64,000 nt of DNA from NCBI RefSeq assembly GCF_007750855.1, contig NZ_CP036291.1, forward strand, positions 5,678,905-5,742,904, in the 5' to 3' direction. Below the pieces are notes generated by a model. The model saw only the letters and a list, made by a program, of their open reading frames with translations, was not told the DNA's origin and did no database searches. This DNA is from Pirellulimonas nuda. GTDB taxonomy: Bacteria; Planctomycetota; Planctomycetia; Pirellulales; Lacipirellulaceae. Made by a program: the position numbers and the translations under genes. Positions 62,161 through 64,000 of this stretch are shown here, in pieces; positions within the stretch are counted from its first letter, which is position 1, and each line of letters opens with the position of its first letter.

Positions 62161-62211
62161 AATCCCTGCGGCCAGCGCACGCTAGCCGGGCGCCGGTTGC
62201 GGGGATTTTCT
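62161..62211 (+). terminator. Rho-independent terminator after the TPR gene
   Basis: AATCCCTGC pairs with GCGGGGATT (one G-T pair), an inner GGC/GCC stem lies between, and TTTTCTTG follows directly. Confidence 0.75.
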
Positions 62212-62377: not shown

Positions 62378-62427
62378 GACCTCGGAGCTGCCAATTGCCG
62401 CAGCCTGGATCGGTCGGAGACTTCAGA

Positions 62428-64000
62428 ATGCTTACGACTCTCAGTGTCGCGTGCGCAATCCTCCTCGCAGTCGTGGCAGGGCTCACATTCCTGACCCTAT
62501 CCGCGCGACGATCGCTATCGCATTTTGCAGCGATTTCGGATGTGGAAGCATATCGCGACGAGTGCCAAAGTCAGGCCGAAACAGCAGTCCAGCAGCAGCT
62601 TGCGGCCCAGGCTGCGTTGCAACAATCCCAAGCGACAGTATCCGAACTGCAAACAACTATCACCAACTACCGCCAAGCGGTTGGTGATTTCAAATCGGTC
62701 CATGAGCTCCGTAGCCAGTTGAAGACGCTTCGCGCGTTCTACGAAGGCTGCAAAACGCTGCAAGAGCTCACTGCCAAAATCGAGTATCACAAGAACCTTG
62801 GCGATCAATATGTCCAGGACATAACGTCACTGGGATTCGTAGCGGACCAGGCCCGCAAGGCGGGCAATCTTTCGGAACAGGTTAAGTCACTAAAAGAGAC
62901 CATAGCAAGACTGCGTCAGGAGGTCGAAGTCGTCGAAGAGCAAAAAACCCTTCAAGAGTTCGGCTTCTATCGATCTAAGTACGACTTTGAGAATTCAGAT
63001 CGATTCAAACAGCGTCTCGACAGGATCCGCAGCGATCAGAAGGCAATGATCAAGGCAGAATCAGCGGCCAGTTGCGCGACGGAGTGGACCGTAGAAGGAA
63101 GCAAGACCAAAGGAAGAAAGATGGTGAAGGACAAGATCAAGCTCTTGCTCCGTGCCTTCAATGGAGAATGCGACGCTGCGATTTCGAAGGTCAAGTACAA
63201 CAATGCTACCGCACTTGAAAAGCGGATCAACACATCGTTTGTGCAGATCAACAAGATGGGCGAAGTCAACCAAGTAACTCTGTCACCTGAGTACCTGAAC
63301 CTCAAGCTGCAGGAACTTTTTCTTAGCCACGAGTACCGCGAGAAGCAGGAGCAGGAGAAAGAGGAGCAGCGGCAGATTAGGCGGCAAATGGACGAAGAGA
63401 AGAAGGTTGAGGCAGAAATCGATCGAGCGCGAAAGGAAGCTGAGCGAGACGAGGCGACGAAGCGGACAGCCCTTGAGCGAGCCCGTGCAGAGCTTTTCGC
63501 GCGAGAAGGCGCCAATGCCGCGAAACTAGAAGAACTGGTCGCAAAGCTAGAGAGCGAACTAAGTGAGGCTATCGATCGAAAGGCGAAAGCAATCGCCCGC
63601 GCTCAACTTACCCGCTCGGGACATGTCTACGTCCTTTCGAACATCGGGTCATTCGGCGAGAACGTATTCAAGATTGGCATGACACGTCGTCTTGAGCCAC
63701 AAGAGCGGGTCAAAGAGCTGGGAAGCGCCTCTGTTCCATTCATGTTCGATGTTCACGCGATGATCTACAGCGAAGACGCACCCGACTTGGAGACGCGACT
63801 TCATCGCAGATTCGCTGACCGCCGCGTCAACTTGGTTAATCATCGAAAGGAGTTTTTCAATGTGACGTTGGAGGAGATTCGGGTAGCCGTCGCCGAAAAT
63901 CATGGCGAAGTTACTTTCATGCTCGACTGTGACGCGGAGGAGTATAGCAAAACAAGATCGCTGTTGGCTGAACGAGAGTACGCCACGGGATCCGGCGCTT
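62428..64000 (+). CDS. SNIPE-like membrane-anchored DUF4041/GIY-YIG nuclease (3' end outside window)
   Basis: ATG 62428 has GGAGA 7 nt upstream; the frame stays open to the window end (524 codons). Residues 5-25 form one membrane helix (LSVACAILLAVVAGLTFLTL). Coiled coils run at about 40-175 and 300-395. DUF4041 is about 165-300 (begins EFGFYRSKYDFENSDRFKQR). A GIY-YIG nuclease of the T5orf172/MUG113 type spans about 397-490: HVYVLSN (399-405), FKIGMTRR (414-421), Arg427, Glu455 in LETRLHRRF, and NHRKEFFNV. This is the domain order of SNIPE, an anti-phage nuclease that, as I recall from recent literature, cuts incoming phage DNA at the membrane. Base composition is much lower in GC than upstream, suggesting transfer. 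Function is by architecture, not shown. Confidence 0.85.
   Translation, partial: MLTTLSVACAILLAVVAGLTFLTLSARRSLSHFAAISDVEAYRDECQSQAETAVQQQLAAQAALQQSQATVSELQTTITNYRQAVGDFKSVHELRSQLKTLRAFYEGCKTLQELTAKIEYHKNLGDQYVQDITSLGFVADQARKAGNLSEQVKSLKETIARLRQEVEVVEEQKTLQEFGFYRSKYDFENSDRFKQRLDRIRSDQKAMIKAESAASCATEWTVEGSKTKGRKMVKDKIKLLLRAFNGECDAAISKVKYNNATALEKRINTSFVQINKMGEVNQVTLSPEYLNLKLQELFLSHEYREKQEQEKEEQRQIRRQMDEEKKVEAEIDRARKEAERDEATKRTALERARAELFAREGANAAKLEELVAKLESELSEAIDRKAKAIARAQLTRSGHVYVLSNIGSFGENVFKIGMTRRLEPQERVKELGSASVPFMFDVHAMIYSEDAPDLETRLHRRFADRRVNLVNHRKEFFNVTLEEIRVAVAENHGEVTFMLDCDAEEYSKTRSLLAEREYATGSGA

Follow-up and report, generated by a model that had tools for sequence, protein, structure and literature searches.

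At the right-hand end of a 64,000-nucleotide stretch of the Pirellulimonas nuda genome (the window; bases 5678905-5742904 of a single contig of 6.62 Mb), a reading frame begins that the initial annotation took for a SNIPE-like anti-phage nuclease. Three questions follow: whether the frame is a genuine member of that family, how it arrived in a planctomycete, and whether it acts by itself or together with the reverse transcriptase (RT) that lies directly downstream. SNIPE was earlier known as PD-lambda-1 (PMC13190303), and a DUF4041 protein was mentioned when PD-lambda-1 was first described (PMC9519451). Planctomycetes are not mentioned in the text of the SNIPE paper (PMC13190303).

The frame is a real gene. 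It overruns the window by 47 bases and is complete in the genome sequence, where it encodes 539 amino acids. It is preceded by a probable ribosome-binding site and, further upstream, by a terminator-like hairpin at the place where a terminator had been noted; a sigma-70 promoter scan for the gene returned no match. The gene and its signals, in window coordinates, are:

62161..62207, plus strand: terminator-like hairpin 3' of the upstream TPR gene (13-bp outer stem, -31.2 kcal/mol, followed by TTCTT)
62416..62419, plus strand: GGAG, probable ribosome-binding site by its sequence, 8 nt 5' of the ATG at 62428
62428..64000, plus strand: SNIPE (PD-lambda-1) homologue gene as far as the window extends, with its stop at window coordinate 64047 (PADLOC, identity to the E. 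coli protein, genome read)

Searched whole against Pfam, the protein carries both of the domains that the initial annotation had named, with all scores far over the Pfam cut-offs. DUF4041 (PF13250) matches residues 238-293 with 88.4 bits over the entire profile (1-56 of 56), and the nuclease is matched by MUG113 (PF13455; 73.4 bits, residues 414-488) and by T5orf172 (PF10544; 62.4 bits, residues 398-488), while a search of NCBIfam returned no family. Two PADLOC models for PD-Lambda-1 score 534 bits (E 8e-161) and 533 bits (E 2.5e-160), the first of them spanning residues 65-517 and profile positions 28-477 of 491. A further PADLOC resemblance, to the candidate defence family PDC-S57, extends to the nuclease domain only (64 bits) and is confined to residues 396-488 rather than full-length. 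The parts of the protein lie as follows:

62446..62502, plus strand: hydrophobic N-terminal helix, residues 7-25, followed by RR (Kyte-Doolittle mean 2.42; helix 2-85 in the structure model)
62515..62958, plus strand: long N-terminal helices or coiled coil, residues 30-177, the variable adaptor region of the family (model helices)
63139..63306, plus strand: Pfam core of DUF4041, residues 238-293 (PF13250 match)
63307..63621, plus strand: helical linker of standard length between DUF4041 and the nuclease (spacing count; model helices 287-358 and 362-396)
63619..63891, plus strand: GIY-YIG nuclease domain, residues 398-488 (PF13455, PF10544)
63628..63630, plus strand: Tyr401 of the GIY-YIG motif, identical in 100/100 aligned sequences
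63706..63708, plus strand: Arg427, catalytic arginine of GIY-YIG, identical in 100/100 aligned sequences
63790..63792, plus strand: Glu455, counterpart of E. coli SNIPE Glu414 by alignment, identical in 100/100

For comparison with E. coli SNIPE, a 500-residue protein annotated PD-lambda-1 in the record of a lambda-like coliphage was used as the reference, since all nine residues discussed in the SNIPE paper (E223, N250, L253, W257, E264, K305, I308, T319 and E414) occur in it at exactly those positions. This protein contains the same three Pfam families in the same order and is 41% identical to the window protein over 484 amino acids, with a constant numbering offset of +41 at the nine positions from 223 to 414. 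The two share a membrane helix, DUF4041, a helical linker and GIY-YIG in one order, a linker of 106 residues and the catalytic glutamate, whose mutation (E414) abolishes defence in E. coli (PMC13190303). They differ at W257, which aligns to Phe298 of the window protein. The motif positions proposed beforehand proved exact (HVY at 399-401, KIG at 415-417, R427, E455), and the catalytic arginine and glutamate belong to a set of residues (Y401, R427, E455, H459, N468 and E475) that is invariant in all 100 aligned sequences, 99 of them different. Profile search, the long E. coli alignment, the catalytic residues and the domain order together identify the gene as a SNIPE homologue. Both outcomes that would have counted against the initial annotation were looked for, missing profile support for the full gene or DUF4041 and a lack of conservation of the catalytic Arg and Glu, and neither occurred.

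Could the same domains instead belong to a GIY-YIG endonuclease of the homing or mobile-element type, or to a general DNA-processing protein with no part in defence? Many viral proteins whose function is different or not known contain T5orf172 and MUG113 domains, and the gene stands alone as a foreign insertion. Viral T5orf172/MUG113 proteins do resemble the window protein in having a GIY-YIG-type domain, and they match its structure model, but the matches are short (about 90-230 columns), which is consistent with the nuclease domain alone. In contrast, the combination of DUF4041, linker and nuclease matches PD-Lambda-1 nearly end to end, the SNIPE spacing and a predicted membrane anchor are present, and the ORFs listed for a 20-kb stretch include no recognisable integrase, intron or interrupted gene. 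A homing or DNA-processing role is thus very unlikely.

The linker was the one feature for which the initial annotation proposed something particular to planctomycetes, namely that residues 300-395 form a variant of the family's linker. This idea was ruled out. The 106 residues that separate the end of DUF4041 from H399 are found both here and in E. coli, and are the modal value of the family (71/100 aligned sequences). The linker segment itself, KEEQRQIRRQMDEEKK, is of the usual EKEEQR-IREQMREEEK type.

The location of the protein in the cell would depend on its N-terminus. The membrane helix suggested earlier coincides with the hydrophobic peak at residues 7-25, where the AlphaFold2 model also has a helix; these residues are predicted to form a single membrane anchor, with an N-out/C-in orientation suggested by the positive-inside rule, a call made from hydropathy and the helix model. 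A transmembrane segment is predicted in 66% of SNIPE homologues (PMC13190303). The helical or coiled-coil region that follows (30-177) is poorly conserved among homologues, and the N-terminal adaptor of the window protein is about 40 residues longer than that of E. coli SNIPE, with no reported similarity over its first 57 residues. In E. coli this adaptor associates with ManYZ. As the adaptor is not conserved, neither the E. coli partner nor the E. coli phage specificity can be transferred to the window protein.

The AlphaFold2 model, which was built with 45 homologues and has a mean pLDDT of 85.8 with a pTM of only 0.50, begins with the N-terminal helix and long helices up to residue 177; after these come the region of DUF4041, then helices 287-396, and finally the GIY-YIG domain with an alpha/beta fold. 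In a library of viral structures it was matched over 378 columns (E 6.9e-19) by a siphovirus protein named helicase, and by many T5orf172 proteins. Among solved structures, a sequence search found no match and a Foldseek search of the model against the PDB returned nothing at E <= 0.001; in a second structural alignment to the PDB, residues 183-397 were matched, for the most part by coiled coils and long helices. Neither structural result is informative for the nuclease.

The reading that best accounts for these observations, and one that is very probably correct, is that of a SNIPE (PD-lambda-1) gene which was acquired laterally by itself and whose product acts at the membrane according to the E. 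coli model. E. coli SNIPE binds DNA and tape measure proteins and cuts phage DNA during injection (PMC13190303). By homology, the window protein would most likely be anchored in the cytoplasmic membrane through the helix at residues 7-25, with the RR pair on the cytoplasmic side, and the coiled coil, DUF4041 and the GIY-YIG nuclease would all face the cytoplasm. At the site of injection DUF4041 would bind both the incoming phage DNA and the tape measure protein, and the nuclease would cut the DNA on entry, as described for E. coli SNIPE (PMC13190303). The outcome would be direct defence in which the host cell is not killed.

Lateral acquisition had been suggested on the grounds of low GC and of a place just past a terminator, and composition, distribution and phylogeny all point the same way. 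With a GC of 53% the gene is essentially the lowest of all stretches this long across the 77 kb examined (mean 68%, sd 3.2). Its third codon positions stand apart too, with a GC3 of 0.60 compared with 0.86-0.90 in four flanking genes, the RT included. A search for DUF4041 in 43 genomes of the host's family gave no match in the 42 other than the host, and of the 392 Planctomycetota genomes sampled, 18 have the domain. A quick tree places the protein nearest to one from Labilithrix (Myxococcota), with which it shares 61% identity in the conserved region. The smallest set with good support (SH-aLRT 99) contains one Myxococcota, one Planctomycetota and one ungrouped sequence that is evidently the query, and the rows named as planctomycetes are spread over three positions in the tree. 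Composition, absence from the family and tree placement give good support to lateral spread of the gene, with the reservation that a tree of this kind does not prove transfer. A search for direct repeats on either side of the gene yielded only imperfect matches of short length, which lie within genes or span them. In genomes of the host's family the genes that flank it here (TPR, RT and PGRP-like) are widely separated or belong to separate contigs; those searched for an empty-site comparison include no second genome of the host's genus. One planctomycete genome carries two divergent SNIPE homologues adjacent and in tandem (L074, G351:C96, 328-1596 and 1600-2964, minus strand).

A gene of foreign origin might also have been left in the chromosome by a phage or prophage in which it served superinfection exclusion, with the same biochemistry and a different beneficiary. 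The E. coli copy sits in a lambda-like phage, and homologues of the DUF4041 nuclease were found in 37 phage records, including ES18, PhiR26_1 and phages of Klebsiella, Vibrio, Streptococcus and Corynebacterium. Several of these homologues bear the name 'chromosome segregation ATPase' or simply 'ATPase', probably a misnomer due to the coiled coil. However, the listed ORFs on either side of the gene have an ordinary chromosomal look and no phage genes were recognised among them, so a prophage remnant is unlikely here. It would in any case differ from the preferred reading in origin and not in mechanism.

The remaining question is whether the SNIPE homologue works alone. Directly after it, past the end of the window, lie two components of an apparent retron (window numbering continued):

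64263-64432 (L002:7168-7337), plus strand: retron-like ncRNA of 170 bases, which starts before the RT ORF and overlaps its first start codon
64369-65778 (L002:7274-8683), plus strand: retron-type RT ORF with a YADD motif (PADLOC)

The RT is best matched by the PADLOC models RT_other (523 bits) and RT_outgroup (492 bits). Its ORF starts 321 bases past the SNIPE stop and has a high GC unlike that of the SNIPE gene; translation may in fact begin from the ATG at L002:7346. The ncRNA, in which both ends form a long terminal pairing that encloses internal stem-loops and a long hairpin, is common to 11 planctomycete loci, this one and ten others with a related RT. Of its 47 predicted pairs, 26 have changed on both sides, and the folding z-score is -5.9; an Rfam search gave no family. 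Behind the RT are two matches to the Rfam Acido-Lenti-1 RNA, on opposite strands and about 100 bases apart (L002:8711-8756, minus; L002:8860-8905, plus), one of which scores 40.9 bits, over the gathering threshold, and the other 28 bits, under it.

With an RT and a covarying structured RNA following on the same strand, about 215 nt from the SNIPE stop to the ncRNA, the nuclease could be imagined as the effector of the retron, the three forming one new retron defence system. The wider comparison does not support this arrangement: no SNIPE gene was found beside the ten related RT loci (flanks up to 5-6 kb), and no related RT beside 97 other SNIPE loci. Nor was an effector gene common to the 11 ncRNA loci recognised. 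The two genes also differ in GC3 (0.60 for SNIPE against 0.86 for the RT), and E. coli SNIPE acts as a single gene (PMC13190303). A role as retron effector is therefore highly improbable, and it is scarcely to be expected that a composite unit exists in this organism, in which, for example, the retron senses infection and SNIPE is the membrane-bound effector. SNIPE and the retron are best read as two independent genes whose adjacency is not conserved.

The locus thus holds a recognisable SNIPE gene, an ordinary member of its family that probably reached this planctomycete laterally. The SNIPE family is hereby documented in Planctomycetota, while what is known of SNIPE itself is unchanged. Because planctomycetes have an unusual envelope, it could be informative to learn which injection machinery or host partner their adaptor recognises.
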